NCBI GenBank assembly: GCA_029261275.1
Contig: JAJDBR010000040.1
Span: forward strand, 1 to 62,535
Length of the DNA stretch: 62,535 nt
Direction: 5' to 3'
Origin: Nitrospirales bacterium
GTDB lineage: Bacteria > Nitrospirota > Nitrospiria > Nitrospirales > UBA8639
Under the pieces are notes generated by a model, which worked only from the letters and a program-made list of their open reading frames with translations, searched no databases and had not been told where the DNA came from. Numbering within the stretch: the first letter of the stretch is position 1; every line of letters starts with the position of its first letter. Shown piece by piece: positions 3,567 through 61,360 of this stretch. Position numbers and translations under genes: made by a program.

Positions 3567-3876
3567 ATAAGGGTCTTGGGGGAGAGGCTTAATATCCTCG
3601 TGAGGATGTCCGAAAATATTAGTCAGGGGAAATTGTGAGAAATTGACTGATCTTTCTGTGAAAGAGGCCTGTTTATCTCAATTCCCTTGATGTTGTTGAT
3701 TTTTAAGTAAAAAAAACGATTTTCTTTGAAGGTAATGAAACGCCAAGCTGAAAAAGGCTTGTATGCATTTCTGGCATGTGAGACTATAATGGATTGTGCC
3801 TTGAATCCTTATCAGTTTGTTTCATGTCGTTATTTCCATTGAGTAGAGAAAGAAGGATTTTAATGGAGTTGGAGAC
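3567..3876. other. Intergenic region upstream of the lytic transglycosylase
   Basis: About 310 bp without a credible gene. A short perfect hairpin (ATCCTC-GT-GAGGAT, near 3593-3606) lies at its left and could end the proC transcript or be a processing site; it has no T-run. The rest is AT-rich and probably holds the promoter of the gene at 3880. Confidence 0.4.
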
Positions 3877-3879
3877 GTG

Positions 3880-21747: not shown

Positions 21748-22429
21748 AAAAGTCCCCACCAAGAAACAGCCACCGGCCAAGACGACGACGACGGCCAAGA
21801 AGGCGGCGCAAGCGCTCAAACAGGCGTCGCAGAAGAAGATGCGTCAGAACCAGAAGACGACGGCCGAGTCCGCAAGACAGGGAAAGGAAAAGCCTGCCAC
21901 CACAACCCGAAAGAAAAAAGTTGGCAAGGCGGTTCTTGGGAAAGATGTAGTGCCGGCAACAAGGGGCCGACCCATCGAACTGACCATGGAGCGAGCCGAA
22001 CGCATTTGTGAGGCCATTCGTCAGGGGCATTTCGTGACATCCGCCGTGCAGAATGAAGGATTAACCCGCCCGACGTATTACGCCTGGATCGAACAGGGCG
22101 TGAGTGATCAGCAGGATCATCTCGACACGATGTATGCCCAATTTTCTTACATGATAAAAAAGGCAGAATTTGAGGCAGAAGACCGCAATTTAAGAATGGT
22201 TCAAGGTGGGGACCTGGGCTGGCAAGCGAACGCATGGCTCCTTGAGCGTCGCTTCCCGGCGCGATGGGGGAATCGGTTTAAGTTTTCCCTCGATGAAGCC
22301 AAGGACTTCATCCGGAAGTTTTTGCATGTGGCCGCCCAACATATTCCCGACCGGGAGGTGTTGCGCAAGATCGTGGAGGACGCCCGAAGGATTGAAGGGG
22401 AGGCGTATGAGCTTGCTGCTGCAAAATAA
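21740..22429 (+). CDS. Phage terminase small subunit-like protein
   Basis: About 229 residues. Residues 1-75 are Lys/Ala/Thr-rich and disordered, probably DNA-coating. The conserved part has a homeodomain-like HTH (ERAERICEAIRQGHFVTSAV, GLTRPTYYAWIEQG), then FSYMIKKAEFEAEDRNLRMV and ANAWLLERRFPARWG, typical of small terminases that recognise the genome packaging site and load the large subunit. The C-terminal helix would contact the ATPase. The ATG at 21740 is chosen over an upstream in-frame start because the coding pattern starts there; it overlaps the next gene by 23 bp. Confidence 0.8.
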   Translation: MAKKVPTKKQPPAKTTTTAKKAAQALKQASQKKMRQNQKTTAESARQGKEKPATTTRKKKVGKAVLGKDVVPATRGRPIELTMERAERICEAIRQGHFVTSAVQNEGLTRPTYYAWIEQGVSDQQDHLDTMYAQFSYMIKKAEFEAEDRNLRMVQGGDLGWQANAWLLERRFPARWGNRFKFSLDEAKDFIRKFLHVAAQHIPDREVLRKIVEDARRIEGEAYELAAAK

Positions 22430-24497
22430 CCCAGACGCGCCACCTCGGGACGATCTGACCTGGGAGGATATGCTCGGCGGCCTTTTTGAGGAACTTAACC
22501 AGACCACCCACAGCACCAGACCGGCGATCGTCGAATCCTGCCCCGCTACCCTCAGGGAGTTTGTCGAACTCCATCAATTCGAAGTCGATAACAACCCGTT
22601 TTCGTTCACAGACCGGGAATATCTGATCCCCATCTTTGAGGGCATTCGCTATGACCGAGGCGACCAGTTTGGCTTAGTCCTCATGACCGGGGCTCAAGTC
22701 GCCAAAAGTATCACCGCCATCCTGTCGATGGTGATGGCGACCATGACGTTCTGGGGCCGCTCCTTCGGCTACTTCCTGCCGGATCAAGAAATGACCCTCA
22801 TTTTTTCCTCGATGCGGTTTATGCCCTTAGTCGAATCGTGCATGGGACTGCGGCCACTCATTGGCCGCGATCATCTCACTGGGGGAAAGACGGAAGACCG
22901 CAAGCGCGTCCGATCCCTTGGGCGCTCGACCGTCTATTTTTCGTACATGGGCGGGAAGACGTCGACCGAGTCTTTACCCATGCAAGGGGTGTGGTTCGAT
23001 GAAGTCCGCCGCATGGCCATGCAAGACGTCGAACGAGCCTCCGAGCGGATTAGTGCCTCCCCCTATCCCATCAATATCAAGCTCTCGACCGCCAAACATC
23101 CCGGCGCCGATATTGACTACTACTACAAGCGGTCGACGATGGGCATGTGGCATTCCAAGTGCCGCTGTAAAGACGGCATCGACCTCGCCAGGACCTTTCC
23201 GAATTGTGTCGGCGAACGCAAGGGCGAAGTCTTTTATCGGTGCCCCAAGTGTGACAAGCGGATCGCACGTCCCGTCGACGGCCGGTATATTTTTCACCAA
23301 CCCGAACGCGACGTCGAAGGGCGGCATGTCGCCCAGATTCTTTCCCCGTTATGGAAAGCGCCGCGCTTTTGGCAATCCTGGTTGGATGCCACGGATAAGG
23401 CGGAGTTTTATAACTCCAAGCTCGGCCTACCCTACCTCGACCCTGAATCCATTGTCGTCACTCCTGAAATTGCCTGGGGCTGCGTCAACCCTGCATTGAA
23501 GTGGCAATCATCCGGCACCAATTGTGTCATGGGGGTCGATCAACGCGGCAAAGAAAACCATGTGGTCATTGGCTGGGTGGGGCCGAACAAGGTAGAAATT
23601 CGGCATCTTGCAATGGTGCAGGCCGATGACCCCTTCACGCCCATGAAAGACTTGATGCAGCAATATGATGTGGATTGCTGCGTGCTCGATGCCTTGCCCA
23701 ACTACAACGAAGCCGTGCGCTTTGCCAAAGCCTTTCCCCGTCGCGTCTTCCTCTCCTACTACACCGACAATGTGCATATGGTGCGGTGGTCCGATCGGGA
23801 TGAAGACCTGAAGGCCCTCCTTCGGGCTGGCAAAGATTCGAAGCATGAATGGCATGTCATGTTGGATCGCTACAAAAGTATCGAATGGTCGTTGATGCAT
23901 TGGGTCAACCGACAGATCGCGTGTCCGAATCCGGACGCGCTGACCCAAGAGGTGAGTGTGAAAGGGCTCAGGAAGACCGTCCCGATTTGTCTCGGGCATG
24001 CCGATCGCATGGAGCCCGGCCTCTTTTGGCATTTGTCATCCATTAGTCGACGGCGCGTCGAACTGCAACGGCGCGATGCCGTCAAAGCCGACATTCTTCA
24101 GACCGGCGAATTCAAGATGATTTGGGAGAACATCGGGATTGATCCGCACTTTGTCCATGCCCTGAATTACATGTTGGTGGCGGGGTCACGGCGGAAGGTG
24201 CTGGATCAATTGATTCTCATGGATGACATTTCGGCACCGAAGACACCTATTCCGGTCATTGAAATCCAGGAAAAGCGGCCAGAATTGCCCGCCACGCAAG
24301 CCGGGGATCAAGCCCAGTTTGAAACCATGATTGTCCCGGCGCTCACGCGCACGGTGAAGCCGGGGACGTGTGGGGCCTGCCAGAATTTTCAAGTCGAACA
24401 GCAACGCTGTCAGGCGCGGCACTTTTCCGTCCAAGCTGCCATGCCGGCAGGGGAGTGTATGGACTATGTGGAACAGATCGGCGAAGGCGACACCTAA
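22407..24497 (+). CDS. Terminase large subunit (GpA-like)
   Basis: About 696 residues: the ATP-driven DNA packaging motor with nuclease. VLMTGAQVAKSITAIL is the degenerate Walker A of the GpA family, GVWFDEVRRM the Walker B. A Cys-rich insert (CRCKDG ... CPKCDKRI) is a zinc-ribbon found in GpA-type terminases. The RNase-H-like nuclease part begins at MGVDQRGKENHVVIGWV and has CVLDALPNY as second acidic motif. An extra C-terminal tail has four Cys (CGACQNF ... C ... C) that resembles the Cys-rich gene at 49097. The ATG at 22407 overlaps terS and fits the conserved start. Confidence 0.88.
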   Translation: MSLLLQNNPDAPPRDDLTWEDMLGGLFEELNQTTHSTRPAIVESCPATLREFVELHQFEVDNNPFSFTDREYLIPIFEGIRYDRGDQFGLVLMTGAQVAKSITAILSMVMATMTFWGRSFGYFLPDQEMTLIFSSMRFMPLVESCMGLRPLIGRDHLTGGKTEDRKRVRSLGRSTVYFSYMGGKTSTESLPMQGVWFDEVRRMAMQDVERASERISASPYPINIKLSTAKHPGADIDYYYKRSTMGMWHSKCRCKDGIDLARTFPNCVGERKGEVFYRCPKCDKRIARPVDGRYIFHQPERDVEGRHVAQILSPLWKAPRFWQSWLDATDKAEFYNSKLGLPYLDPESIVVTPEIAWGCVNPALKWQSSGTNCVMGVDQRGKENHVVIGWVGPNKVEIRHLAMVQADDPFTPMKDLMQQYDVDCCVLDALPNYNEAVRFAKAFPRRVFLSYYTDNVHMVRWSDRDEDLKALLRAGKDSKHEWHVMLDRYKSIEWSLMHWVNRQIACPNPDALTQEVSVKGLRKTVPICLGHADRMEPGLFWHLSSISRRRVELQRRDAVKADILQTGEFKMIWENIGIDPHFVHALNYMLVAGSRRKVLDQLILMDDISAPKTPIPVIEIQEKRPELPATQAGDQAQFETMIVPALTRTVKPGTCGACQNFQVEQQRCQARHFSVQAAMPAGECMDYVEQIGEGDT

Positions 24498-41175: not shown

Positions 41176-41512
41176 CTGGGGGGAGATTCTTGCGTTCCTG
41201 TCATTGACCGTCACCGTGGTGAGTACGATTGTGGTGTCACATCGGCTCACCGGCAAACGGTTTGATGGGGTCACCACCCTGGTACATACGGAAATCAACG
41301 ACATGAAAGAAAAGCATTTAAAGCCGATCGAGAAGCATTTGGCGACCCTGAATGGCCGCGTCGGCAAAAATGAAATCAAGATTGATGAGCATAAGGAGCA
41401 GCATGCTCGGCAGTTGAGTGGCCTTGAACAATGGGCGGGAAAACTCGATGAAGACGTGAGCGAAGTGCGCGAAACCGTGGCCACCCTTAAAGGGCAGTTG
41501 AACCAAGCATGA
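41162..41512 (+). CDS. Membrane-anchored coiled-coil protein
   Basis: 116 residues. One N-terminal membrane helix (ILAFLSLTVTVVSTIVVSH) is followed by about 70 residues of charged heptad pattern (MKEKHLKPIEKHLATLNGRV and on), a long coiled coil. Such small proteins in late operons can act as holin partners, spanins or entry factors (like XhlA). It overlaps the genes on both sides. Confidence 0.55.
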   Translation: MLSVSWGEILAFLSLTVTVVSTIVVSHRLTGKRFDGVTTLVHTEINDMKEKHLKPIEKHLATLNGRVGKNEIKIDEHKEQHARQLSGLEQWAGKLDEDVSEVRETVATLKGQLNQA

Positions 41513-44500
41513 TGAACACCTTCTGGCTGTTATTGAAAACGCACGTTAAAGGGTATGCCACTAGGGCCGGGCAATGGGTCGAGGCCCATGAGGACAAGCG
41601 GCCTACGCGGAAGATCCAACCCAAGGCCGCCCGGCCTGCGGTGGTGCCGGATGATCAACTCAATCTCTTTTCGCTCCTAGAACAACCCTCACAAGTGGCG
41701 CCGTCGTCCGAGCCGGACACGGCCGCTCCTCTGCCGAGCGTGGCGAAACCGAAAAAGCAAGCGGCTAAGGTGTCTACCAAGACGTCTCCCGATGAACAAG
41801 GGGCCCTCGACTATAGTCTGCCCTGGGCAGACGTGGCGGCCCAAGTGCCCGAGTTTGGCGCCAAAGATGGGTGGAAGCCCAGTCAACGCAAACAGGCCAA
41901 TGAGGAGGCACGAGAGGTGCTCGCCAAAGCGGCTAGAAGGGGCAGCCTGGCCAAAGGCGAGCGCAAAAAACTCGCAGCCTATTCGGGGGAAGGCGGTATT
42001 GGCGATTCCTTGAATGAATACTATACCCCGCCCAAGGTGGCGGCGGCGATGTGGTATCTCTTGCGCCGATTTGGGTTGGAGCGCGGCCATGTCTTGGAAC
42101 CGTGTGCCGGGTCCGGCGTCTTTCAAGAAACGAAGCCCGCGGGCCTGGAGATGACGGCCGTGGAATGGTCCCCCACGAGCGCCAAGATGAACGCGCTTTT
42201 GCATCCGAAGGACCGGGTGGAAGCCTCCGCCCTGGAACATTTTGCCAGTGCCGATGCCAGTCGCTATGACGCGGTCATTGGCAATGTCCCGTTTGGGGTC
42301 CGGGGAGCGATTGCGGGCTTTGATAAGCCGAACCTGGGCAAAGCCGAGGACTATTTCGTCGATACCTGTCTCGATAAAACCAAAGAAGGGGGCTTGGTCT
42401 GTCTCGTCGTGCCGCATGGCATTGCCACGAATCCGACCGCACGGGCCTTTCGCAAGCGCGTCATGGCCAAGGCCGAGGTGGTGGGCTTGCATCGTTTACC
42501 CAATACGGCGTTTGCGCATTCGGGAACGGCCGTCGTTACCGATATTCTCCTGCTCCGCAAACGTCCCCATGATGTGTCGCAGGGGCTTGGGACTTTGACG
42601 GATGACGCGCTGAAAAAAGTCGGGATCTGGGATACCCCGTGGTTGGATGGGGCCGTCCTGGACGATCCGGTGCGTGGCCATCTGCATGGCACGGCCCAAG
42701 CCAATTGGCGAGGCGGGTACGACGTCGGCGGGGACATGGCCGGTGTCCCGGAGGCGATTGCCACCATGCCCATTCCGGATCTTCCGGACGCAAGCCTCTC
42801 CATGGAAGAGCTGGTTCGCGCGCTCGATGAGGACCCGGAGGCGCTGAGTAAAGCCGTCCGGGCGTCTCGCAAGAATCCCTATCCTGAGCTCGAGCTTGGG
42901 ACCACCAAACTCATGAACGGGCAGCTCTATCTCTTGCAAGGCGACCCGCGTCGCTGGCACAAAGCGTCAGAAATTGGCGAGGCCCACTATGCGCCGACGT
43001 CGAAAGAAGGGCAGGCCTTGGCCTTAAGCGATCGGCTGCGCTTGGTGGCTGAGGCTGTGCGGGATGGGTTGCCGGTGTCCGATCGTGAACAACTCCGCGT
43101 CGATGTCCAGGCCTATCTGGCCACGCATGGCAATCCCAATGCCGATGCGACCCTTAATGCGATGAGCCAACGCGATCCGCGGTTTCTGCCGTTACTGGCG
43201 GCGATTAATCATGACGGGCGCTTGTCGGATCTTCTGGAAGGGACGGCGCTAGGGACCGTGGCGCACACGAATGTCGATTGGACGAATTTTGATGACGTGG
43301 CTCAAGCCACGATTGGGCGCGATGGTTATACGGTCACCCCTGAAGCCATCATGGCGGCCTGGGAGGACAACCGGCATACCCTTGAAGAAGTGCACCAGGC
43401 CTTGTATGCCTCCGATCGATACGCGGTGGCCCTGGATGGCGAAGAATGGGGGTTGCGCGAAGACCTGACGGCCGGCGAGCTCTACCCGAAACTCGATGCG
43501 CATGACGCGGCCATTGCGCGCTTGCCGACGGAGTCGCCGTTACGCGCGCAACTCACCCAACAACGGCAGTGGTTGCTGGAGGCCATCAAGCCGAAAACGA
43601 TAGAAGAAGTGGAGGTGTCGTTGCGGTCGGGCTTTGTGCCGGAAGCGGCCTTGTCGGCCTATCTGTCGACTCGAACATGGGGAGACGGAAAGGTCCAGGC
43701 GTCGTTCAAGGATGGGGTCTATGATATCCACGTAGAGCAAACGACGGCAAGGTATGCCGGGCTCTCCGACTGGTACGACAAATACCTCAACCGGCTCACC
43801 ATGCAAGAGTCCGATTGGGATGCTATTCCGAAGCGCGAACAAGAGTTTCAAGAATGGCTGGCGACGTCGGCGTATCGAGAGGAAACCGAAGACAACTACA
43901 ACCGGGCGTTTAACTCCTTCAAACCCAAGCGCTACGGCAATGATCCGTTAAACATCCCAGGGTGGAATAGCGAGATGGCGTTGAACTCGTACCAGTATCC
44001 AGCCCTTCGTTGGGCATTGGAAGAAGGCAAGGGCATTCTCGCGCCGGATGTGGGATTGGGGAAAACCCCACTCGCGATTGCGCTCGTAGCGAAGCTCCGA
44101 GAACAAGGCAAAGCGCGCCGCCCGGTCATTGTCGTCCCGAAAACCCTGGCGGCGAATTGGGCGGCAGAAATTGAAAAGTTTCGGCCGGGCTCTAAAGTCA
44201 TGATTATTGGGGAAACGCATACACGAGACAAAGAGGGGAACTTAAGCGCCAAGCCGGATGTGAAGTCGGTCCGTGATAAGAAATGGCACCAGATCACGCA
44301 AAACGACTACGACTATATCCTGGTCACCCAACCCGCCTTCAACGACATTGATGTGGATCCCATCGTCAAAGGGCAATATGTCAAGGAAAACTTCTGGACG
44401 CAACGGTCGGAGGCACTCGAGAAGGGCACCGATCGCAAGCGCAAGGAAATTCTCCAACGCTATGAGCAGGCGATGGCGGATAAAGATTTCCTGAAGCGAA

Positions 44501-47500
44501 CGAACGCCATTTATTGGAACCATCTGGGTGTGGACTGTTTGATTGCCGATGAAGGACATTGCTTCCCCAAGGGGACACTCGTCGATGGCAAGCCAATAGA
44601 AAGTCTTCGGGTAGGTGACACCGTGCACACCTACAATCATGCAACAAGGCAAGTTGAAAAAAAGACGGTAACGGATTTCCAGGTACGGGTTCCTCGCTCC
44701 ATGGTTACCGTCAAAGCAGGAAACGGGAAGCACATTCATTGCACAGGCAATCATCCTTTCTGGACGCAGCGAGGGTATGTTCCTGCCGATCAATTGACCA
44801 TTCTTGATTTCGTGTATAGCATTGATAAAAATACAAAGGAGACTATACATGAACGATATTTGTCATCAGTGCGGCATAACCTTTCCGCTCAATCATGTTC
44901 AGAAGTGGAAGAAAAAAACTGGACGATCGGACAAGTTCTTTTGCAACAAGTCCTGCATGGGGAAATGGAGGGCAACCTTACCGTCATGGAAGGAAGCCAA
45001 TCGGAAGGTTACAGCAAAAAGAATGGTGGCATTTCAAGAAGAATCTCGTCAGCGCATGCTAACCAAAAATCCAATGAAGAATGCGGTGAGCAAAGAAAAA
45101 ATGCGTTCAACTCTTCGTGCCAGGGGATGGAAACCCACTGTGCAGGGCGGAAATGGCCATGGTCCAACCTGTGCACAGCAATTACTCGCTTGTGCGCTTG
45201 GATGGGATATGGAAGTTATCGTATCCATGAAGGGGCAAGGGAAAAGCTATCCGAGTCATTACAAAATAGATATCGCCAATCAAACTCTGAAAATCGGCGT
45301 AGAAGTGGATGGTGCCAGCCACAGCTCACTTGCTCGCAAGGCACAAGACAAAAAGAAAGAACAAAAATTACAGGAACTCGGGTGGTCCATCTTGAGATTC
45401 ACCAACAAACAAGTGACGGAACATTTGGAGGACTGTGTCCAGACGGTCTTGTCTACAATATCGAAGTTGAAACCCACCACAACTATTTCGTAGACGACGT
45501 TCTCGTCCATAACTGCTACAAAAATTTGTTTACGGCTCGCAACCGCCGAGGGGAAACGCCGAAGTTCCTCGGTGGATCAGGGTTTGCCAAACGCGCCCTT
45601 GACATGAACCACAAAACTCAGTGGCTCCGGTCACAGAACAACGGCAAAGGTGTCTACTTCCTTACGGCCACTCCGGTCAAAAATTCTCCCCTCGAAGTCT
45701 ATTCCATGCTCTCCCATATTGTGCCGGGTGCGTTTACGAGTCGAGGCATCCGGCATGAAGAGGACTTTATTGATCGGTATTGCCAGATCGAACAGCAACA
45801 GGTCTTGGGCACCGACGGCACGATCGACGAATCACCCGTGGTCGTGGGCTTTAAGAATATGGATGAGCTCCGCGCGATTATGGGTCGGCATATCTACCGG
45901 AAAACCGCTGAAGAGGTGGGCCTGAAATTGCCAGAAAAGAATATTCAAGAACATTTTGTCGATATGACGGCTGAACAACATGCGGTCTATGCCGATCTTC
46001 GGGAGCAAGCTCGGGAGGCGGGTGGCTCTGACGATAGTGGGAATGCCCATATCTTTTCGATTATGGACAAAATGGGCAAGGCGGCCATGGATTTAAGCTT
46101 GCTGTATCCTGTGGAACATGCCAATGCCGAGAGTCCGAAGTATGACGCCTTAGTCAAAAATGTGATGACCCACTCCAAGGATGGCGGGCAAGTGGTCTTT
46201 GCTGATCAAGTCGACGTGCATCAGAAGATCAAGGACCGGCTCATTGCTTCAGGGATGAACGCTCAACATATCGGCATTATTAACGGGGAGGTCGCGACAA
46301 GCAGTGCCGCACGCCAAGGCCTCGCCGACAAGTTTACCGCTGGCAAACTGAAAGTCATTATTGGGAATACCCAGACAATGGGTGAAGGCGTCAACCTGCA
46401 AAAGGTGACCACAGATATTCACCATTCCGATATTCCCTGGGAGCCAGCGTCCATCCAGCAACGCAATGGCCGCGGTCTGCGGCAGGGCAATACCAAAGAG
46501 TCTGTCCGCCTGCATACCTATTTAGCGAAACGGTCGTTTGATGGCTACCGCTGGCAAACGATGGCCGGGAAACGTGACTGGATGACGCAATTGTGGAGTG
46601 GCGGGGATCGTATTGAAAATCCAGCGGCGCAACAAGGCGTGACGAGCCGGGATGAAATGCTTCTCCTGATGTCCGAAAATCCCGACGCGGCGAAGGCGGA
46701 GATGGAGAAGAATACGGCGTTGCAACTGGAGAAGTACACGGCCATGAAAAAGAAAGGGGCCGCCGATACGTTCCGGCAGTACGTCAAAGCCAAAATGAAT
46801 CATGCGGCCCTCAAAGATCCCGAGAGCAAGACGGCGCAGATGCTCAAGATGCGGCTCGGCCGACTCCATGAAGACCTGAGTCGGAATGAGCATTTCGAAA
46901 AGAACGCCTTGCTGGATCATGACGGGCCTATTCTTCTCAACGGCCATGGCCATGCCTTCCATCCGGACGCAGCCTTTTTGATGGAAGGCGGTGGCAAAGG
47001 GCCGGCCACGATTTCAGCCGAGCCGACCACCTGGAATGTCTCGAAGGTGAACGTGGAGAAACGGGAAGTCACGATGCGGCCGGTGGGCTATAGTTCGAAC
47101 CGGGCCTCGGATACGGGAGAAACAGTCTTTGACTTACATGACTTGGAAAGTGGCGTGACGCCAACGGATCCCGTGTCAGCCGGGGCCGAGTTGCGGCATC
47201 TCATCGAGAACCTCACGCATCCCGTGGCGCTCAAACGCTTTCCCAAGGAAATGCTGGAAGAGCATCTGCCGGCCATTCAAGATCGACTCCGCAGTTATAT
47301 GGCACCGAAAACCAATTATGAGGACGAGGCGTCTCGCGATCGGAAGGAACTGTGGGGCATCCATGAAGGGAAGACATCCTTGGAAAAAATCTTTCCTGGA
47401 GGAACAGGGGCGGAGACGGCGACCTATGTCGTCCCCCATACCGACTCCATGCATCACTTCTATGACGAAGTGCTCAAGGAGAAGGAATGGAATAAACGGT

Positions 47501-48180
47501 ATGGCACACCGAGCTATGGACGCGGCAGTCGCCGAAAGAATTCCTTCCGGCCAGATCGATTTCAACAAGGCCTCTATGCGTTCCATGACTACACCGAACG
47601 CGATGCCGTGTTGGCGGCCTATAAAAAAGAGAAAGAAGCGAAGCAAGCGGGGATGGCCAAGAGTCGACCAGCCTTCACCTTATTCCTGAAAAGCTTTCCT
47701 GACCATGCAGAGCGGCCGGGGGAGCAGGGCGGGAGTCAGCCACGCGATGACGGGGAGGCCGAACAACGACGTCGAGAACAGGCCAAAAAACGTGATCGGT
47801 CGGAAGAGGTGAAAAAAGAGTTTGAGGGGGCCCAACGCCAACGAGAGGACAGCCGATCCTATGATGAAAAGAAACGGGATCAGGCCAAGCAGGCGATGAA
47901 GGACCTCATGGCCCGACAAACCCTTCATCGAGACGATTGGGAGTCGACGTATCGGCGCTTATTACAGGAACACGGGGTGACGGAGCAGTTTCTGGTGGAA
48001 GAGCTTCGACAGTTTAAGCAGATGCTCGATCAGGTAACTGGGAAAAATCGCGGTGAAAGCCCTCTAGGAAAGTCGTGTGGGCTTCTGGAGGAATCCGATC
48101 GAGCAGGTAATCCAAAATGGCTAGGTTTTGCTCAGGAGTTAACGCCGGTGTCGTCGGGTTTTCAGTTGGTGATTCGGTAA
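41509..48180 (+). CDS. DarB-like virion polyprotein: methyltransferase plus SNF2-type helicase, interrupted by an intein
   Basis: 2223 residues, about 1905 after removal of the intein (residues 1018-1335). It begins with the shared tag (LLLKTHVKGY, EAHEDKRPTR). Residues about 165-345 are an N6-adenine-type methyltransferase: YYTPPKVAAAMW, VLEPCAGSGVF and NVPF (259-262, a variant of NPPF). The helicase has GLGKT (849-853), DEGH (1014-1017), LTATP (about 1385) and QQRNGRGLRQGN (about 1650). This order and size match phage P1 DarB, a head-packaged antirestriction protein injected with the DNA. The C-terminal 150 residues are highly charged. The last about 40 residues run opposite a minus-strand gene. 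Confidence 0.8.
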   Translation: MMNTFWLLLKTHVKGYATRAGQWVEAHEDKRPTRKIQPKAARPAVVPDDQLNLFSLLEQPSQVAPSSEPDTAAPLPSVAKPKKQAAKVSTKTSPDEQGALDYSLPWADVAAQVPEFGAKDGWKPSQRKQANEEAREVLAKAARRGSLAKGERKKLAAYSGEGGIGDSLNEYYTPPKVAAAMWYLLRRFGLERGHVLEPCAGSGVFQETKPAGLEMTAVEWSPTSAKMNALLHPKDRVEASALEHFASADASRYDAVIGNVPFGVRGAIAGFDKPNLGKAEDYFVDTCLDKTKEGGLVCLVVPHGIATNPTARAFRKRVMAKAEVVGLHRLPNTAFAHSGTAVVTDILLLRKRPHDVSQGLGTLTDDALKKVGIWDTPWLDGAVLDDPVRGHLHGTAQANWRGGYDVGGDMAGVPEAIATMPIPDLPDASLSMEELVRALDEDPEALSKAVRASRKNPYPELELGTTKLMNGQLYLLQGDPRRWHKASEIGEAHYAPTSKEGQALALSDRLRLVAEAVRDGLPVSDREQLRVDVQAYLATHGNPNADATLNAMSQRDPRFLPLLAAINHDGRLSDLLEGTALGTVAHTNVDWTNFDDVAQATIGRDGYTVTPEAIMAAWEDNRHTLEEVHQALYASDRYAVALDGEEWGLREDLTAGELYPKLDAHDAAIARLPTESPLRAQLTQQRQWLLEAIKPKTIEEVEVSLRSGFVPEAALSAYLSTRTWGDGKVQASFKDGVYDIHVEQTTARYAGLSDWYDKYLNRLTMQESDWDAIPKREQEFQEWLATSAYREETEDNYNRAFNSFKPKRYGNDPLNIPGWNSEMALNSYQYPALRWALEEGKGILAPDVGLGKTPLAIALVAKLREQGKARRPVIVVPKTLAANWAAEIEKFRPGSKVMIIGETHTRDKEGNLSAKPDVKSVRDKKWHQITQNDYDYILVTQPAFNDIDVDPIVKGQYVKENFWTQRSEALEKGTDRKRKEILQRYEQAMADKDFLKRTNAIYWNHLGVDCLIADEGHCFPKGTLVDGKPIESLRVGDTVHTYNHATRQVEKKTVTDFQVRVPRSMVTVKAGNGKHIHCTGNHPFWTQRGYVPADQLTILDFVYSIDKNTKETIHERYLSSVRHNLSAQSCSEVEEKNWTIGQVLLQQVLHGEMEGNLTVMEGSQSEGYSKKNGGISRRISSAHANQKSNEECGEQRKNAFNSSCQGMETHCAGRKWPWSNLCTAITRLCAWMGYGSYRIHEGAREKLSESLQNRYRQSNSENRRRSGWCQPQLTCSQGTRQKERTKITGTRVVHLEIHQQTSDGTFGGLCPDGLVYNIEVETHHNYFVDDVLVHNCYKNLFTARNRRGETPKFLGGSGFAKRALDMNHKTQWLRSQNNGKGVYFLTATPVKNSPLEVYSMLSHIVPGAFTSRGIRHEEDFIDRYCQIEQQQVLGTDGTIDESPVVVGFKNMDELRAIMGRHIYRKTAEEVGLKLPEKNIQEHFVDMTAEQHAVYADLREQAREAGGSDDSGNAHIFSIMDKMGKAAMDLSLLYPVEHANAESPKYDALVKNVMTHSKDGGQVVFADQVDVHQKIKDRLIASGMNAQHIGIINGEVATSSAARQGLADKFTAGKLKVIIGNTQTMGEGVNLQKVTTDIHHSDIPWEPASIQQRNGRGLRQGNTKESVRLHTYLAKRSFDGYRWQTMAGKRDWMTQLWSGGDRIENPAAQQGVTSRDEMLLLMSENPDAAKAEMEKNTALQLEKYTAMKKKGAADTFRQYVKAKMNHAALKDPESKTAQMLKMRLGRLHEDLSRNEHFEKNALLDHDGPILLNGHGHAFHPDAAFLMEGGGKGPATISAEPTTWNVSKVNVEKREVTMRPVGYSSNRASDTGETVFDLHDLESGVTPTDPVSAGAELRHLIENLTHPVALKRFPKEMLEEHLPAIQDRLRSYMAPKTNYEDEASRDRKELWGIHEGKTSLEKIFPGGTGAETATYVVPHTDSMHHFYDEVLKEKEWNKRYGTPSYGRGSRRKNSFRPDRFQQGLYAFHDYTERDAVLAAYKKEKEAKQAGMAKSRPAFTLFLKSFPDHAERPGEQGGSQPRDDGEAEQRRREQAKKRDRSEEVKKEFEGAQRQREDSRSYDEKKRDQAKQAMKDLMARQTLHRDDWESTYRRLLQEHGVTEQFLVEELRQFKQMLDQVTGKNRGESPLGKSCGLLEESDRAGNPKWLGFAQELTPVSSGFQLVIR
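44560..45513 (+). mobile_element. Intein in the Walker B (DEGH) site of the DarB-like helicase
   Basis: 318 residues. Cys1 starts block A (CFPKGTLVDGKPIESLRVGD). Block B is GKHIHCTGNHPFWT with the TxxH catalytic motif. The end has block F (VYNIEVETHHNYFVDD) and block G (VLVHN) with penultimate His and final Asn; the +1 extein residue is Cys (CYKNLF). The flanking exteins join as DEGH-CYK, restoring the helicase. No in-frame DOD endonuclease is present; instead the middle of the intein is the antiparallel use of another frame by the gene at 44849. All residues for splicing are present, so activity is likely. Confidence 0.92.
44849..45493 (+). CDS. Vsr-like (EDxHD) homing endonuclease nested in the intein in another frame
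   Basis: 214 residues read in the +1 frame relative to the polyprotein. The ATG has an AAAGGAGA site seven bases upstream, so it can be translated independently. The N terminus has a zinc finger (CHQCG ... CNKSC), then a NUMOD-like DNA-binding segment (NPMKNAVSKEKMRSTLRARG). The C-terminal nuclease fold has YKIDIANQTLKIGVEVDGASH, then a spaced Asp in KAQDKKKEQKLQELGWSILRF, giving the E-x-D-G-x-x-H...D pattern of Vsr-like EDxHD homing nucleases. It ends 20 bp before the intein end. The enclosing frame has no stop through its whole length. Confidence 0.88.
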   Translation: MNDICHQCGITFPLNHVQKWKKKTGRSDKFFCNKSCMGKWRATLPSWKEANRKVTAKRMVAFQEESRQRMLTKNPMKNAVSKEKMRSTLRARGWKPTVQGGNGHGPTCAQQLLACALGWDMEVIVSMKGQGKSYPSHYKIDIANQTLKIGVEVDGASHSSLARKAQDKKKEQKLQELGWSILRFTNKQVTEHLEDCVQTVLSTISKLKPTTTIS

Positions 48181-48199
48181 GGGTGTGCATGAACATCAT
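48014..48199 (-). CDS. Small minus-strand protein
   Basis: 61 residues, read against the end of the DarB-like gene (tail-to-tail overlap of 167 bp). The sequence (LTPEQNLAILDYLLDRIPPE, TTFLEGFHRDFSQLPD) is helical and much more protein-like than the plus-strand frame over the same bases. The first of several in-frame ATG codons (48199) has a weak GAGAAGAG site. It is transcribed away from the operator cluster at 48238-48301. No family recognised; a small regulator is a possible role. Confidence 0.55.
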   Translation of the reverse strand: MMFMHTLTESPTENPTTPALTPEQNLAILDYLLDRIPPEAHTTFLEGFHRDFSQLPDRASA

Positions 48200-48237
48200 T
48201 CTACTCTTCTCGGAAGATTGGGGCAAGACATGAAAAT

Positions 48238-54770: not shown

Positions 54771-55022
54771 ATGTTCCGAGGCCGACTCTACGCCGGCCGC
54801 CTGTATGCCGGCCACCTGTTTGGTGGGACCGGGGCCCTGGTTGTGCTGCCGCCCGAGAAGACGCGCACGTCTGGCGGGGGCGGGGGCTACTACATTGGGC
54901 GGAGCCCCGAAGCCGCCGCGAAGAAGAACGCAGAGGAGGCCACGCGGTTACGCATCCTGCAAGAAGATCGGGACTTCATTGAAATGCTGGGCGTGATTTT
55001 AGACGTGATGGAGGATGACTAA
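54771..55022 (+). CDS. Small hypothetical phage protein
   Basis: 83 residues. Starts with an aromatic Gly-rich segment (RLYAGRLYAGHLFGGTG), a Gly run, then a charged helix (KKNAEEATRLRILQEDRD). Such small genes between fibre genes are common, but no family is known. Confidence 0.5.
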   Translation: MFRGRLYAGRLYAGHLFGGTGALVVLPPEKTRTSGGGGGYYIGRSPEAAAKKNAEEATRLRILQEDRDFIEMLGVILDVMEDD

Positions 55023-58000
55023 TGGCATCATTGCGGAGCGGGTTGCTAGCGCTCGGGATTACCGGACCGGAGGCTACCTATATTCGGAGCAAGGTCAAAG
55101 GGTACCGTGACGAAGGCGAGGACCCGCACGAGGCCGCCCTTGATGCCGTCTCGGACTTACTGGCCGACGCCCAACGGCAGTATCTCGACGTGGCCAATCA
55201 AATTCATGAGGCGCTTTTGCCTGAGCAACGCCTGACCGTCTTTCCCTATAAAGATCATACCGAAGAATTCGCGAAAGGATCCGTCCGGCCGCATGTGCGC
55301 ACCCACCCCACAACCGGGGCCATGATCCCCGTTGCCGGCTATACCAATTCGAAACCATCGCATGAGATTGCACACCACACACCCGCGCGTGATGAGCGGG
55401 AGTGGATCGGCGTTGATTTTGATAAAACCTTAGCGTATCACGAGCCTGGGTCAGGAATCAGCGAAGGGTTGGGCCATCCGATTCCTTCTATGATGCGACG
55501 GGTGCGGGACTGGCTCAAAGCCGGGAAACGCGTCAAGATCATGACGGCACGCGCGATGAATAGCGAACAAATTCCTAAAATTCAAGCCTGGCTCGTGGAA
55601 CATGGATTGCCAAAGCTCGAAGTCACGAACGTGAAAGATCATCTCATGGGCGCGTTATACGACGATAAGGCGGTGGGCATTCATCCGAATACGGGGGCGC
55701 GGACGGATCGGATGCAGAAGGCCCATATCAACACCTACACCAAACAGGATGGGACGGTGGTGCAGGCGCATGAAGATAGTCGGGCAAAGAGAGAAAATGC
55801 GTCTACAAACAAAACCCCTGCTCACGGCATCGAGACTGCCGCGTTTAAGCAGTGGTTTGGAGACTCGAAGGTCGTCGACGATCATGGGAAGCCATTGGTG
55901 GTCTATCATGGAACCGGGGACAGCTTTAAAGAATTTGAATTTGACCACCCACACAGAAAGGATGATGGGTGGCTAGGTCGTGGTTTTTATTTCTCGAGCC
56001 ACCATCAAATAGCTGGGGGCTATACCAGCCTGAAGCCAGGGGATGCCCCTAATATCATCCCCGCGTTCTTGAGTTTACAAAACCCCTACGAAGCCAATGT
56101 CACCGAAAAGCGAACACTGCAATCGGCGAGCAAGGCAGAAATAGATGACTGGACAGAGGAGCTGAAGACCAAGGGCCATGATGGCGTTATTCTACATTAT
56201 GCCCACAATGAAAACGGACGAAGCCCATCTGAATATGTTGCCTTCTCCCCCACGCAAATCAAATCAGCGACCGGCAACGTCGGCACCTTTGACCCCACGA
56301 ATCCTGATATCACCAAAAGTCAACCTAGTTTCGCGTCTACCAAGCCGTCTACCGTTCCCTTCCCCACCAACGTCCTCACCGTGAAACGCAAGGGCAAAGG
56401 CGGAGGCCATGCCATTGATTATAAGACGACCTTTCAAGGCTTGCCGATTACGATCGAAAACCGGAAAGGCAGTCTGCGCCAGTGGGGTAATCCGGATGAT
56501 GGCACGGCCGGGACGACGAAAATGGAATTCCCGTATGGGTATATCCGGGGGACGGAAGGACTGGATGGCGACGGCGTCGATTGCTTTCTAGGGCCGAATC
56601 CGGATGCAAAACATGCCTTCGTCATTCATCAATTACAAGCCCCAGATTTCATCGTGCATGATGAAGATAAATGTATGCTGGGATGGGAGACCCCTGAAGA
56701 CGCGGCGGCCGCGTACCTTCGCCATTACACCGATGCCCGGTTCTTGGGCTCCATGTCGTGTTTGCCGATGGGAGAATTTACCGAAAAAGTGCAACGCACG
56801 CGGGAGCATCCAGGGTTCATTAAAAGTGCCATGGCCACGTTGCAGCGGTTTTTGAAAGCCGACGCCGAGCGGTGGATTACCGTCCATCCCCATGGGCCTG
56901 GGACGGCAGGGCAACCTATTAAAATTCGGGAAAGCGCAGGCTCGCCGGGCACGTATCATGTGGTCGGGGGGGCAGGCGGGAAGTTGAATTATCTCAAGCT
57001 GACCGACGTCAAATCGCCAGAAGAATACAAAGCCAAGGCCAAGGAACGGGGCAAAGAATCCCGGGCCAAGGCGAAAGCACAGGTCACACGCGATAAAGAA
57101 CTCGGCCTGGTCGACAGTAAAAAGCAGGTCATGTCCACGCTCAAGGCTGATCGGGAGAAACATCAACGCGCGCTCATCGAGCAGGTGGCCAATCTCAAGG
57201 GCTGGCAAGACTATGACTTGAAGCCCGAGCAGCTTGATGGCTTATCGGATCGTGCTAAAGAAGCGGCCATTCTCAAGCATCATCGTCACTTGCATCGTGA
57301 TGCCCAACAAGTCATCCAGGCGACGAAGGAAACGCTCCTGCTTGATGCCGAAGCCCGAGCCGAGGCCGAACTCGGGGAATTGTCCATTCATCGTGACGAG
57401 CCGAATGTGCTGGGGCTGACCGATTTGTCGCCGGATCCCCAAGAGCGGGGGTTGGGCTATCAACCCGATTATGGGCCGCACACGGAGGACATTGCCGAGG
57501 AAGCGCAAGCGTTCAAGGATGAACAAGCCGCCAAACGTGACCCGGCTCGGCAAGAGAGAATGGAACGGATGCAGGACGCGGCCAACGAAACGCGAGAGGA
57601 AGTCGCCAAGGCTGAAGCATCGGGGCAACTCGTAGCGCCTGTCCGAGAAACCTCGGGGGTCGATCCGCGTCATGCCGTAGCCCTTTTGGCGGCCCACAAG
57701 CAGACGCAAGCCACACTCAAGCAGATTCAAGAGAAGAAAAAAGAGGTGCAGGGGTCCACGCGCGACGTGCAGGCCAAGTCCTATGTGATTCAAGCCGAAC
57801 CCGTCTCCTCAGAGGAAATCCTGAAAGACCTCATGGCCGATGCGGCCGAACGTACCCGGCACGATCGAGCCACGTCGTTCCTCACCATGGTCGAGCATGA
57901 CCCCTTTGACGAACAGCCAGAAGACCACCAGGCGTCGTTACGCCGGCATATTCAAATAGGGTCCGCCTCGATGCTGTCTCGGGTGTCGCAACAAGTGACG

Positions 58001-61000
58001 GGCGTCGATATTCTCCCGCGTGAAGTCGTGGATGTCTTAGGCACGGCCGGCGCGGCACAAGCCCTCGCCAACGCGATCCATACCAATTTCTCGGAAGACC
58101 AAGTCAAAGCCTGGGCGGAACAACTCGGGCAATACCATGCCGACCATCAAGGGACGGTGACGGAAGAAGCCGTCGGCCGAGCCAAAGAGGCCTATGAGCA
58201 GGCCCAGGAAATGGTTATGGAGTCGGTGACGTCCCCGTCAGAGTTGGCCATCGCCAATGAATTGAATGAGAAGCGCCTGGGGCTCTTGCGCGAAGCCCGG
58301 GAATCCTTAGGCGCAACCCTGGGGGAATTGGAAGCCATGGGGGCCCTGAATCTAGCGCTGCGGAGTCAACCCACGGAAGAGATGATGGTGTCCATGGGGG
58401 GGGTGTCCACGGAGACGGCGATCCGCCAACTGAAAGCCCTGGGGCTCGACAAAGACGACTATGATATTGATAGCGATGGGACCAACCATTTTGCGCTGAT
58501 TGCGGGGGGTGGCTTAGGCAAAGTCGTGCGGCCGATCGATCAAGAGGACCTCGCCCATCGTCAGGTCGTCAACGCCATTCTTGGGGGGCAGCATGATGAA
58601 GACGGGTGGGTGCCGGCGGGGTTTGCGCATCGCCCGGACACCAGTTTTACCGACCCCGAACGACAGGCCGTCACCTACGCGCAACCCTATCAGACGTCCC
58701 CTCAAGGCACCCATGACGAAGATATCCAACAGTATATCGGCCAACGCATGGCCGATGGGCATGCGCCGCATGACATTTACAAAGATCTGTTTAGTGACAC
58801 GGTGTTGGGGCACATTCCGAGTGACGACCATGACGCCTACTTTCAGGCCCTCGATCGTGTGGCGCCACTGTATGATGAGGCTGGGAAGCCGCGAACGGCC
58901 GAGTCGCATCAAGCCGCGTGGGAAGAGTTTGCGGAGCAGGCGCTGACCCAGAAATATGGACAAGACGCGACCCCGCTGCATAAACAATCGCTACGCACAC
59001 AGGATCCGCACACCTTCGAAGCCATTCATCGGGTCATGGCCGAGGATCCCACACGCGGGGTGGCCTTTACGCCCACGGGCGAGCTTACCCATCAAGACCA
59101 GTCGACGTTACGCCATCTCTTCGAGGCCCGGTTTGCCAAGCCCGAAGCCCACGAGGCGACGACCGAGGCCATGGCCGCGCTCGGGCCAGAACCGGCCAAG
59201 GAATCCGCAGGCCTCTTTGGCACGCAAGATAATCCGGAATGGCACGAGCATCAATCCAAAAAACAGCGCATTCTTGAGGAGGCACAGGCCAACGGGCTGA
59301 CGTGGGAGAAATATGTGAAGATGCATGGCTCTCGTATGAAGGCCTTCCAAGCCCTCCAAGATATTGTGAAAGGCGAAGCCGCCCACGCCTTTGCCAAAGA
59401 ATATGGGCGCGTGCATCGGCAGCCGTTACAACTGGGCCGCACGACGGTGACCAATCATTTGGCGCATGTCGATGCGGTCAATCCGCACGCACGAGAAGCG
59501 CGGTTGGCGGAAGAGCGGCAGGTCATGGATCGGTTGCGGAATCGCGCGGCCGGCCGATATGCCGGCGGGGGTGCCAAAGACAAACTGGATCGCGTGCGCG
59601 AGCTCTCAGCCATTGCGGATCAAAATCAACGGACGATGTTTGCCGCGGATCCCGAAGGCGTCACGAAGGTGCGGCCACTGAAAGAGGCGGAGCGGCATAC
59701 GTTAGGCCATACGGCGGAAGCACAGCTTGCCGCCATGTGGCCGCAAGTGGCCAGGAACTTCAGTCCTGATCGACCCGTCAGTCTCATGGTGAATAAACGC
59801 ATGGATGGCACGTACATCAATCAACAGCGAGCGGTCAAACTGATTGCCCATAATAAGCGGATGGCGTTGGCGCTGGGGACTGGGAGTGGCAAGACCGCTG
59901 TGATGTTAGGGGCCTTCACGCATCTCCATGCCCAAGGCCAAGTGAAGCGCGGCTTCTTTGCGGTGCCGTCGGTCGTTCAAGGGGAGTTTGGGGTGGAAGC
60001 GGCCGCGAATATTGAGCCTGGCACATATTCGTGGTGGGGGAAACCCGATGCGCCGCGTGACGAACGGCTGGCCGCCTATAAGAATCCAGACCATCAGATG
60101 ATCTATGTCACCCATCAAGCCTTGCGCGACGATTTAGTGCATCTTATGGCCAAGAAAGAAGGCCTGTCAGAGTCAGAGATGGCCGAACAGTTCAAGGCCA
60201 TGAAGGAAGAGGACCGGACGACGCTCATGCAGGCCACGCTGAAAGCCGAAGGCATCCACCCTGATTTTTTCGCGATCGACGAAGGGCATGACACCCTCAA
60301 TCGGGCCGGCAAGGAAGACAGTTTGCTCTCGAATGTCCTCGATGCGTTTCATATGCCCTTGCCCTACTATGTGTCCTCCAGCGCGGATCCGATGAAAAAT
60401 GACCTGAGCGAATTGTATTCCCAGCTCCATAAAATTGACCCCAAAAAATTCAACAACATGAACGCCTTCATGGGAAAATATGGGCTCAAGACGAATGCGA
60501 GCCAAGATGTCTTGAAACGCGAGCTCCGGCGCTATCTGCTCCCCGGCAAAGTGGATCCCGGGATTCAGGCGACACACCATGATGACGCGATCAGTCTCAG
60601 TGATCATCAACGGGACGCCTACGACGGGGTGATGAAGGATTATCGAACGGCACGGGCCGCGCGACAACATGACACGGTCGATCTCGGGGCGGCGAAACGT
60701 TTGAGCCCGACAAGCTTTGAGGGCCGTGACGACGCTGAACATCATGAAATCGCCACCGGGATTCATCGCAATTTAGGCATTGTGCGTGATGGGGCGCTCG
60801 AGCGGGTGCTGAATGATACGAAACCCGCCCACAACGCCAAAGCCCACAAGGTCCTTGAGCTGGCGGATCGGTATAAACAGGAAGACAAGCCCGGCGTCAT
60901 CTTCGCCCGATCGCGGAAGGCCGTCGACCATCTCCAGCGGATGCTGTCTGAAGAAGGGCATCGGGTGCTGACGATTACGGGGAGCGATACAGCCAAAGAG

Positions 61001-61360
61001 AAAGCTAAGAAAATTGGACAATTTCGACCTCCTCCTGGCCGGGAGCCCGAAGCCGATATCGTGGTCGCGTCAGATGCGGCCGCGGTGGGGGCCAACCTCC
61101 AGCGGGGGCAATATTTGATCCATTACGATCTTCCTCACACCAGTAAAACCTGGCATCAACGGACGGGAAGAATTCATAGACTAGGGCAACAGCACGACAT
61201 CCACGTCCACACGCTCGCCACGGATACGCGGTTGGATGCCAAAAAGAAAGATCGCTTGGATCGAAAAACAGCGTTACGGGAACATCTTACGTCACCTTAC
61301 GAAAGTCTTTCTGATGAACACGAACTCTACACCCTCCTCCGACACGAAGACGAAGCCTGA
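55022..61360 (+). CDS. Giant polyvalent protein: HAD, ADP-ribosyltransferase-like, pyrophosphatase-like and SNF2-helicase domains
   Basis: 2112 residues. HAD-like phosphatase: VDFDKT (about 131-136) and DDKAVGI. Tag-like segments occur near residues 85-110 (SVRPHVRTHPTTG) and 232-255 (KAHINTYTKQDG ... AHEDSR). ART-like domain about 275-435: WFGDSKVV, PLVVYHGTGDSF, GRGFYFSS. Pyrophosphatase-like domain about 465-600 with PYGYIRG and LDGDGVDCF. A charged coiled-coil region follows. Helicase: LGTGSGKTAVM (about 1618), DEGH (1753-1756), WHQRTGRIHRLGQQ (about 2044). This layout fits the polyvalent proteins packed in phage heads to counter host defence; it is a second helicase without an intein. 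Confidence 0.75.
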   Translation: MASLRSGLLALGITGPEATYIRSKVKGYRDEGEDPHEAALDAVSDLLADAQRQYLDVANQIHEALLPEQRLTVFPYKDHTEEFAKGSVRPHVRTHPTTGAMIPVAGYTNSKPSHEIAHHTPARDEREWIGVDFDKTLAYHEPGSGISEGLGHPIPSMMRRVRDWLKAGKRVKIMTARAMNSEQIPKIQAWLVEHGLPKLEVTNVKDHLMGALYDDKAVGIHPNTGARTDRMQKAHINTYTKQDGTVVQAHEDSRAKRENASTNKTPAHGIETAAFKQWFGDSKVVDDHGKPLVVYHGTGDSFKEFEFDHPHRKDDGWLGRGFYFSSHHQIAGGYTSLKPGDAPNIIPAFLSLQNPYEANVTEKRTLQSASKAEIDDWTEELKTKGHDGVILHYAHNENGRSPSEYVAFSPTQIKSATGNVGTFDPTNPDITKSQPSFASTKPSTVPFPTNVLTVKRKGKGGGHAIDYKTTFQGLPITIENRKGSLRQWGNPDDGTAGTTKMEFPYGYIRGTEGLDGDGVDCFLGPNPDAKHAFVIHQLQAPDFIVHDEDKCMLGWETPEDAAAAYLRHYTDARFLGSMSCLPMGEFTEKVQRTREHPGFIKSAMATLQRFLKADAERWITVHPHGPGTAGQPIKIRESAGSPGTYHVVGGAGGKLNYLKLTDVKSPEEYKAKAKERGKESRAKAKAQVTRDKELGLVDSKKQVMSTLKADREKHQRALIEQVANLKGWQDYDLKPEQLDGLSDRAKEAAILKHHRHLHRDAQQVIQATKETLLLDAEARAEAELGELSIHRDEPNVLGLTDLSPDPQERGLGYQPDYGPHTEDIAEEAQAFKDEQAAKRDPARQERMERMQDAANETREEVAKAEASGQLVAPVRETSGVDPRHAVALLAAHKQTQATLKQIQEKKKEVQGSTRDVQAKSYVIQAEPVSSEEILKDLMADAAERTRHDRATSFLTMVEHDPFDEQPEDHQASLRRHIQIGSASMLSRVSQQVTGVDILPREVVDVLGTAGAAQALANAIHTNFSEDQVKAWAEQLGQYHADHQGTVTEEAVGRAKEAYEQAQEMVMESVTSPSELAIANELNEKRLGLLREARESLGATLGELEAMGALNLALRSQPTEEMMVSMGGVSTETAIRQLKALGLDKDDYDIDSDGTNHFALIAGGGLGKVVRPIDQEDLAHRQVVNAILGGQHDEDGWVPAGFAHRPDTSFTDPERQAVTYAQPYQTSPQGTHDEDIQQYIGQRMADGHAPHDIYKDLFSDTVLGHIPSDDHDAYFQALDRVAPLYDEAGKPRTAESHQAAWEEFAEQALTQKYGQDATPLHKQSLRTQDPHTFEAIHRVMAEDPTRGVAFTPTGELTHQDQSTLRHLFEARFAKPEAHEATTEAMAALGPEPAKESAGLFGTQDNPEWHEHQSKKQRILEEAQANGLTWEKYVKMHGSRMKAFQALQDIVKGEAAHAFAKEYGRVHRQPLQLGRTTVTNHLAHVDAVNPHAREARLAEERQVMDRLRNRAAGRYAGGGAKDKLDRVRELSAIADQNQRTMFAADPEGVTKVRPLKEAERHTLGHTAEAQLAAMWPQVARNFSPDRPVSLMVNKRMDGTYINQQRAVKLIAHNKRMALALGTGSGKTAVMLGAFTHLHAQGQVKRGFFAVPSVVQGEFGVEAAANIEPGTYSWWGKPDAPRDERLAAYKNPDHQMIYVTHQALRDDLVHLMAKKEGLSESEMAEQFKAMKEEDRTTLMQATLKAEGIHPDFFAIDEGHDTLNRAGKEDSLLSNVLDAFHMPLPYYVSSSADPMKNDLSELYSQLHKIDPKKFNNMNAFMGKYGLKTNASQDVLKRELRRYLLPGKVDPGIQATHHDDAISLSDHQRDAYDGVMKDYRTARAARQHDTVDLGAAKRLSPTSFEGRDDAEHHEIATGIHRNLGIVRDGALERVLNDTKPAHNAKAHKVLELADRYKQEDKPGVIFARSRKAVDHLQRMLSEEGHRVLTITGSDTAKEKAKKIGQFRPPPGREPEADIVVASDAAAVGANLQRGQYLIHYDLPHTSKTWHQRTGRIHRLGQQHDIHVHTLATDTRLDAKKKDRLDRKTALREHLTSPYESLSDEHELYTLLRHEDEA

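Follow-up and report, generated by a model that had tools for sequence, protein, structure and literature searches.

An intein in a phage helicase gene with a putative homing endonuclease gene overprinted in its +1 reading frame

The homing endonuclease I-Bth0305I resides in a group I intron, and Dassa et al. reportedly described, in 2009, fractured genes for phage DNA enzymes with split inteins and a free-standing EDxHD-type nuclease lying between the halves. I-Bth0305I (3r3p) is an EDxHD homing endonuclease, group I introns are known to carry nucleases of the EDxHD type, and canonical inteins such as PI-SceI carry their homing endonuclease in frame (PMC3943268, available part). Thermosynechococcus has a DUF559 gene assigned to the EDxHD family that appears beside a discussion of inteins, its frame going unmentioned in the available part of PMC9403480. 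The ShiLan domain, as set out in the accessible sections of PMC11855218, consists of an HNH gene that lies out of frame within an insertion in a phage methylase, with neither splicing domains nor a detectable ribosome-binding site, and the insertion is thought to be unspliced, such that the product keeps the loop; the same sections cite a 2025 preprint (Gosselin et al.) on actinobacteriophage inteins with 'non-canonical architecture'. Our searches of the open PubMed Central literature turned up no splicing intein reported to contain a homing endonuclease in another frame; two relevant works lie outside that scope, and the Gosselin et al. preprint or Dassa et al. (cited in the accessible part of PMC12350094) might mention the nested arrangement.

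Here we describe a locus in a 62,535-nucleotide contig of a Nitrospirales bacterium (JAJDBR010000040.1), the whole of which was analysed and is referred to as the window. The contig contains phage terminase and portal genes, and the features of interest, listed in Table 1, lie within a single large ORF that has no stop anywhere across the insert and matches phrog_11801 (3.5e-186). We consider it very probable that the insert is a mobile intein with a homing endonuclease overprinted in the +1 frame and separately translated. Comparison with the known systems is instructive in several respects. First, the locus resembles the ShiLan domain and its relative Pacc40 in that a homing nuclease gene lies in the other frame of an insertion kept open by the host gene, with a patchy distribution in phages, whereas theirs is an HNH without a splicing domain and the one in the window is a DUF559/EDxHD nuclease with conserved splicing blocks and a Shine-Dalgarno site (PMC11855218, accessible sections). 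An initial annotation of this DNA knew of no such nested arrangement, which agrees with the literature searched as far as a splicing intein is concerned, but an out-of-frame homing nuclease as such is already published. Secondly, canonical inteins likewise combine a splicing domain and a homing enzyme in one element (PMC3943268, available part), but their enzyme is a fused domain and not a separate overlapping gene; only one of 126 flanked loci described below is fused. Thirdly, I-Bth0305I shares the nuclease core fold, whereas the window nuclease is intein-borne, out of frame, and has a four-Cys N-terminal region. Fourthly, the Dassa-type fractured genes have split inteins, whereas in the window, as in 124 of the 126 flanked loci, no break interrupts the outer frame and the intein is in one piece.

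Table 1. Features of the nested intein and nuclease locus, in coordinates of the window.
Feature	Coordinates	Strand	Remarks
Host ORF, DarB-like phage methyltransferase/SF2 helicase, 2223 aa including intein	41509..48180	+	N6_Mtase, SNF2-rel_dom, Helicase_C; phrog_11801
Helicase motif II DEGH, final residues of the N-extein	44548..44559	+	
Intein, 318 aa, Cys1 to Asn318	44560..45513	+	motifs, Pfam, AlphaFold model, Foldseek
Intein N-terminal splicing domain, residues 1-90	44560..44829	+	block pLDDT 95-98
Block-B T62-x-x-H65	44743-44754	+	inside N-terminal splicing domain
Outer-frame linker	44830..45360	+	block pLDDT 43-60 for residues 91-260
Shine-Dalgarno-like AAGGAG	44836..44841	+	7 nt upstream of inner ATG
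Putative homing endonuclease gene, out of frame (+1 relative to intein), 214 aa plus TAG	44849..45493	+	ATG at 44849, TAG at 45491-45493
Four-Cys zinc-finger-like nuclease N-terminus (C5, C8, C32, C36)	44861..44956	+	
DUF559/EDxHD-like nuclease core, residues 136-204	45254..45460	+	
C-terminal splicing region of the intein, with HN (45508-45513)	45361..45513	+	DNA mostly also nuclease C-terminus
Dual-coded stretch	45367..45493	+	intein C-terminal strands plus nuclease C-terminal strand and helix
Cys+1, C-extein residue 1	45514..45516	+	

That the insert is an intein with every splicing motif at the DEGH site of a helicase had been proposed from the sequence alone, and the present analysis bears this out: C1, T62-x-x-H65, H317-N318 and the Cys at +1 are all in place, and the Pfam model Intein_splicing matches residues 17–318 (6e-11, 42.8 bits against a cut-off of 35.8). 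The NCBIfam model intein_Cterm scores 20.8, over its cut-off of 15.6, and intein_Nterm scores 21.5, under its cut-off of 24.5. An AlphaFold model of the outer protein contains a two-part Hint domain formed by residues 1–90 and about 268–319, with block pLDDT of 91–98 from residue 271 onward, and the top Foldseek matches of this model are inteins and intein-like domains (e.g. NpuDnaB, 4o1r, and Synechocystis DnaB, 1mi8). The DNA of the low-confidence linker of the model is the bulk of the nuclease gene; this linker is probably disordered, as judged from the model, and a Pfam search of the outer frame across 44803–45432 gave no match. Among relatives, Intein_splicing is matched by 78 of the 81 that were aligned, and C1, T62, H65, H317 and N318 are conserved.

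This conservation bears on the alternative that the insertion remains unspliced and leaves the host protein with a long loop. Such a state has been proposed for the ShiLan domain, whose out-of-frame nuclease in an insertion thought to be unspliced offers a published precedent (PMC11855218, accessible sections). We regard this as highly unlikely here, given the conserved splicing motifs, the predicted Hint fold, the position of the insert within ATPase motif II, and the selection on the C-terminal splicing block in its own frame that is described below. We give next to no credence to a group I or II intron carrying the nuclease ORF in place of an intein; such introns do harbor EDxHD nucleases (PMC3943268, available part), but there is no Rfam match at the gathering threshold within 41500–48200, and the outer frame is open with intein motifs under selection. 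A fractured gene with a split intein was likewise rejected for the window, where there is one uninterrupted ORF, although such a gene is found at one related locus (L111, below).

The inner gene was first described as a complete 214-residue nuclease behind its own Shine-Dalgarno-like site, with both frames open over the same DNA, and all of these elements are present as described (Table 1). The inner protein matches Pfam DUF559 (1.2e-11, 44.8 bits against a cut-off of 20.6), as do all 83 aligned relatives, and an AlphaFold2 prediction made with 82 relatives has a pLDDT of 94. Foldseek searches with this model return 3hrl (E 6.9e-4) and I-Bth0305I (3r3p; E 8.7e-3, probability 1.00, TM 0.65 over the target), and 3hrl is also the one significant match in a sequence search of the PDB. 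In the core, D141, H158 and D167 are conserved in 124 of 124 relatives and E152 in 123, with D154 also conserved; these five we take to be the residues of the EDxHD motif. The predicted fold and the catalytic acidic and His residues thus place the protein among the EDxHD/DUF559 nucleases. The four Cys positions of the N-terminus are occupied by Cys in 109–111 of 124 relatives, and the Pfam zf-FCS model matches this part below its cut-off only. The earlier label of 'Vsr-like EDxHD' therefore stands as far as its DUF559/EDxHD likeness is concerned, and fails for Vsr proper, which was rejected (NCBIfam vsr, 15.6 bits against a cut-off of 97.85).

A tblastn search with the inner protein found 41 phage records. 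Eight of these, from Vibrio, Corynebacterium and Pseudomonas phages, were examined, and in all eight the nuclease lies +1 of the helicase gene with the helicase frame open; the gene tables around the helicase in these eight records contain no annotation of the inner gene. Corynebacterium phage phi673 has the same nested arrangement. Scanning added further relatives from viral contigs (80 kept out of 263) and from genome contigs (80 kept out of 287). A first set of 111 loci in which the nuclease is flanked by both intein N- and C-domains reduces to 92 non-redundant loci, 91 of them with the nuclease in the +1 frame and one with it in frame. For a further scan the intein N-domains of the clade, instead of the nuclease, served as seed (80 kept out of 99), and of the 77 new loci that it gave 75 are nested +1 and open by a loose test that admits two short nuclease remnants (L183 and L235), and 73 by a stricter one; the exceptions are these two remnants, a mini-intein (L232) and a locus at a contig end (L230). 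A clear nuclease is present in 74, of which 37 repeat earlier loci, and 36 of the 37 fresh ones are nested and open. Pooling all loci yields 243 with the nuclease, 176 of which are non-redundant and 126 of these have both intein domains. Conservation of the two frames among related alleles, which the initial annotation had put forward as a check, is then seen in 124 of the 126, with one locus fused in frame (L119) and one fractured (L111). The remaining 50 of the 176 have one intein domain (6 loci) or none (44 loci), and six of them were examined in detail (L085, L098, L117, L118, L124 and L126). Among 120 loci with a readable N-extein end, this is DE in 107 and DE[AGS]H in 9, and as read from these sequences the insertion site of the family is helicase motif II. 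The titles of the genome contigs name Verrucomicrobia, Chloroflexi, Cyanobacteria, Proteobacteria, Acidobacteria, Clostridia and other hosts. By sequence comparison, then, the nested intein and nuclease form a large and widespread family in phage and bacterial sequences, with more than 100 distinct members.

Several individual loci differ in organization. In a Candidatus Methanosuratincola contig (L119:2822-5503) the nuclease core is fused in frame within the intein and the four-Cys part is absent; by eye, the host gene reads like a UvrD-type helicase. In a Lacinutrix MAG (L111:3196-5490) the helicase and intein are broken into two ORFs with a nuclease ORF (3674-4444) between them, which resembles the fractured genes reported by Dassa et al. 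(2009), where a stand-alone nuclease gene of EDxHD type separates the two halves of the intein. At L085:3986-6278 and L098:3956-6024 a free-standing nuclease of the family is directly upstream of an intein-less DEAH-type helicase, placed as if parked beside its target. We found no second copy in the window's own genome, and among 58 other genomes of related species there are matches to the nuclease core in 4, all short and with only 25–32% identity. Elsewhere in the window, positions 55022-61360 encode a 2112-residue polyvalent phage protein with ART-PolyVal (ADP-ribosyltransferase), inorganic pyrophosphatase and helicase domains.

The length by itself of the inner ORF is weak evidence against a chance origin. 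The two strands of the window contain 63 ORFs of at least 150 aa, many of them overlapping, and when the outer intein codons are shuffled the +1 frame remains free of stops for 214 codons or more in 2 of 5000 trials. We also note that the terminase gene (22206-24497) contains, at 22861-23499 in its +1 frame, a 212-aa ORF without a Pfam match; this ORF is probably there by chance, and shows how little the length of a nested ORF means by itself in the window. The abundance of long overlapping ORFs, together with the decay of the inner frame in some relatives, would fit a functionless chance or decayed ORF, an explanation that we nonetheless consider exceedingly improbable; it is homology and selection, and not ORF length, that are decisive, namely the synonymous shuffles described next and the recurrence of the arrangement in 124 of the 126 flanked loci. 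The near-invariant core residues, the high pLDDT of the inner model, and the low ratio of nonsynonymous to synonymous change in the nuclease frame also speak against it.

Selection is evident first in the absence of stops from the outer frame, where a stop arises if a T-ending nuclease codon precedes a codon starting with AA, AG or GA. In 20,000 synonymous shuffles of the window nuclease codons the outer frame was open in none, with a mean of 10.2 stops and a minimum of 2. In the first set, to which no filter for openness was applied, the outer frame is open in 90 of the 91 +1 loci, with a total of 10 stops against 724 expected from synonymous shuffles of nuclease codons; all 10 are in the fractured L111, where the former outer frame is near the 13.9 stops expected without constraint. 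The unused third frame of the same set has 1235 stops against 1131 expected. In the pooled nested set T is found at 0 of 6546 at-risk junctions versus 4088 of 17942 elsewhere, although an open frame was required for inclusion in this set and the independent figure is thus the 90 of 91.

Secondly, dN/dS was computed for each frame, as had also been proposed initially, using 17 disjoint pairs of related loci, some from one cluster (20 pairs, less 2 duplicates from the same contigs and 1 with few changes). Across the linker the ratio is 0.07 in the nuclease frame (bootstrap 0.055–0.094) and 1.0 in the intein frame (0.68–1.7; 0.53 with the other estimator, 0.35–1.01), whereas over the final ~150 nt the nuclease frame has 0.26 (0.11–0.49) and the intein frame 0.21 (0.10–0.37; 0.18 with the other estimator). 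For the outer frame NN/NS is biased, since the comparison it makes is between the first and second positions of nuclease codons, and SN/SS is therefore also reported, though it is based on few sites. In the intein frame, then, the linker is kept open and is otherwise nearly free, and the 3′ end encodes two constrained proteins, the dual-coded stretch (Table 1) being under purifying selection in both frames among the relatives. The suggestion that the same DNA must encode both a spliceable linker and a nuclease thus needs qualifying: the linker is modelled poorly and is near neutral apart from the avoidance of stops, and clear constraint on both frames is confined to the last ~150 nt. The inner frame looks relaxed in the pair L096/L097 and, on few underlying changes, in L186/L204. 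The nuclease stop codon is TAG in 99 of 124 loci, and falls inside the final 68 nt of the matched intein region in 120 and past it in 4, in which the nuclease frame extends beyond the intein end.

How the inner gene is expressed can be examined from its start region. Considering the stop-free stretch leading to the nuclease start, or the first codons, a start codon is present in 122 of the 124 loci and is ATG in 114, compared with 57.7 expected in +1-frame stop-free stretches of equal length (123 loci with a control). Shine-Dalgarno matches of at least 5 nt precede the start in 25 of 87 loci, whereas control ATGs, drawn 200 times, average 8.9 and never exceed 18; the other 62 have no such match. 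This enrichment of ATG and of Shine-Dalgarno matches favors initiation of the nuclease on its own over programmed +1 frameshifting, by which the nuclease would be made as a fusion to the intein N-terminal half. Frameshifting would accord with the constancy of the +1 relationship (125 of the 126 flanked loci, 124 of them open) and with the 10 of 124 loci in which no ATG lies at the nuclease start or ahead of it; we consider it unlikely given these enrichments, the clean AAGGAG, 7-nt spacer and ATG in the window, and the occurrence of the same kind of nuclease as a free-standing ORF in L085 and L098.

Turning to the mobility of the intein and its nuclease, the closest relative of the window helicase in the phage collection is that of Bordetella phage PHB04, with 60% identity across almost the entire query. 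Its site is empty, although Ala replaces the +1 Cys of the window and the empty site is thus not identical to that of the window. The intein state varies across 40 records of Vibrio phages whose helicase exteins share 95% identity or more with that of phage K391, with match spans indicating a full 1068-bp nested intein in 24, a 450-bp mini insert in 10 and none in 6, counts that include many near-identical isolates. The in-frame insertion thus has precise empty alleles both in PHB04 and in related Vibrio phages, the Vibrio empty alleles having protein identities of up to 99.5%, and the Vibrio distribution is consistent with homing at the insertion site. Sequences were read for full (L002–L004), mini (L254–L258 and L262) and empty (L259–L261 and L263) alleles, L003 and L258 having extein identities below 95%. 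The mini-inteins are 143–150 aa and occupy the same site as the nested intein, and align poorly with the full intein over most of their length, such that they are not simple recent deletions. Two of the six (L257 and L262) are 93–95% identical to the nested intein over the final 42 nt, which may reflect co-conversion.

Loss of the inner frame with retention of the outer one was named in the initial annotation as a state that would count against its proposal, and this state does occur: in L170, L183, L232 and L235, in the Vibrio mini-inteins, and in a Rhodovastum plasmid with an intein at the window's site and a degenerate +1 frame. L253 is among the relatives whose inner frame is lost or degenerate. 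Three of these inteins (L170:3272-3541, L183:2810-2992 and L235) look as if caught mid-decay, their outer frame being open and their +1 nuclease shortened or reduced to a remnant. We read relatives that have lost the inner frame as late stages of the homing cycle, and the evidence for selection elsewhere stands. In a Mantel test, for which 71 of the 124 nested loci had sufficient extein sequence, nuclease distances correlate with extein distances (0.58) and with splicing domain distances (0.49); the test gives no sign that the nuclease travels more tightly with the splicing domain than with the extein, and the stronger extein correlation indicates that the unit is not purely mobile. Adaptation to the target site could account for the tracking of extein distances by the nuclease.

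From these observations we infer how the element may function. Translation of the helicase gene would give one precursor, from which the Hint domain (residues 1–90 and about 268–318) would excise itself and join the helicase halves, the anatomy suggesting that the ~175-residue linker is left as a floppy loop. A second initiation, at the inner ATG behind AAGGAG, would produce the separate zinc-finger EDxHD/DUF559 nuclease, which would cut intein-free alleles at helicase motif II, with repair then copying the intein in. Comparison among relatives shows that selection maintains the nuclease protein, the stop-free outer frame, and both proteins in the last ~150 nt. A nuclease that is no longer needed would decay, and the site would pass to a mini-intein or become empty; both states are observed, and their order is presumed. 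A break in the outer frame would give a fractured gene with a split intein, for which L111 is the one case and the presumed direction is from nested to fractured.

We think it fairly probable that there is a widespread lineage of motif II inteins with an overprinted +1 homing gene that has its own start, and that this lineage is a source of fractured genes and split inteins, mini-inteins, and free-standing nucleases. The supply of nuclease would be uncoupled from splicing in such a lineage, while the nuclease C-terminus would be tied to the intein C-terminal block. L111 would exemplify the fractured genes and split inteins that arise when the outer frame is lost, mini-inteins would arise when the nuclease is lost, and a nuclease that escapes would become a free-standing gene next to a helicase without intein, as in L085 and L098. 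The two functions would then be those of separate proteins overwritten in one stretch of DNA, in 124 non-redundant loci. None of the eight phage records has the inner gene in its annotation. If this reading is true, overlapping genes can be studied in a large set of natural examples, fractured genes and split inteins have a plausible origin, and the expression and upkeep of a nested gene become directly testable; it would also suggest that such nested genes are being overlooked in annotation.
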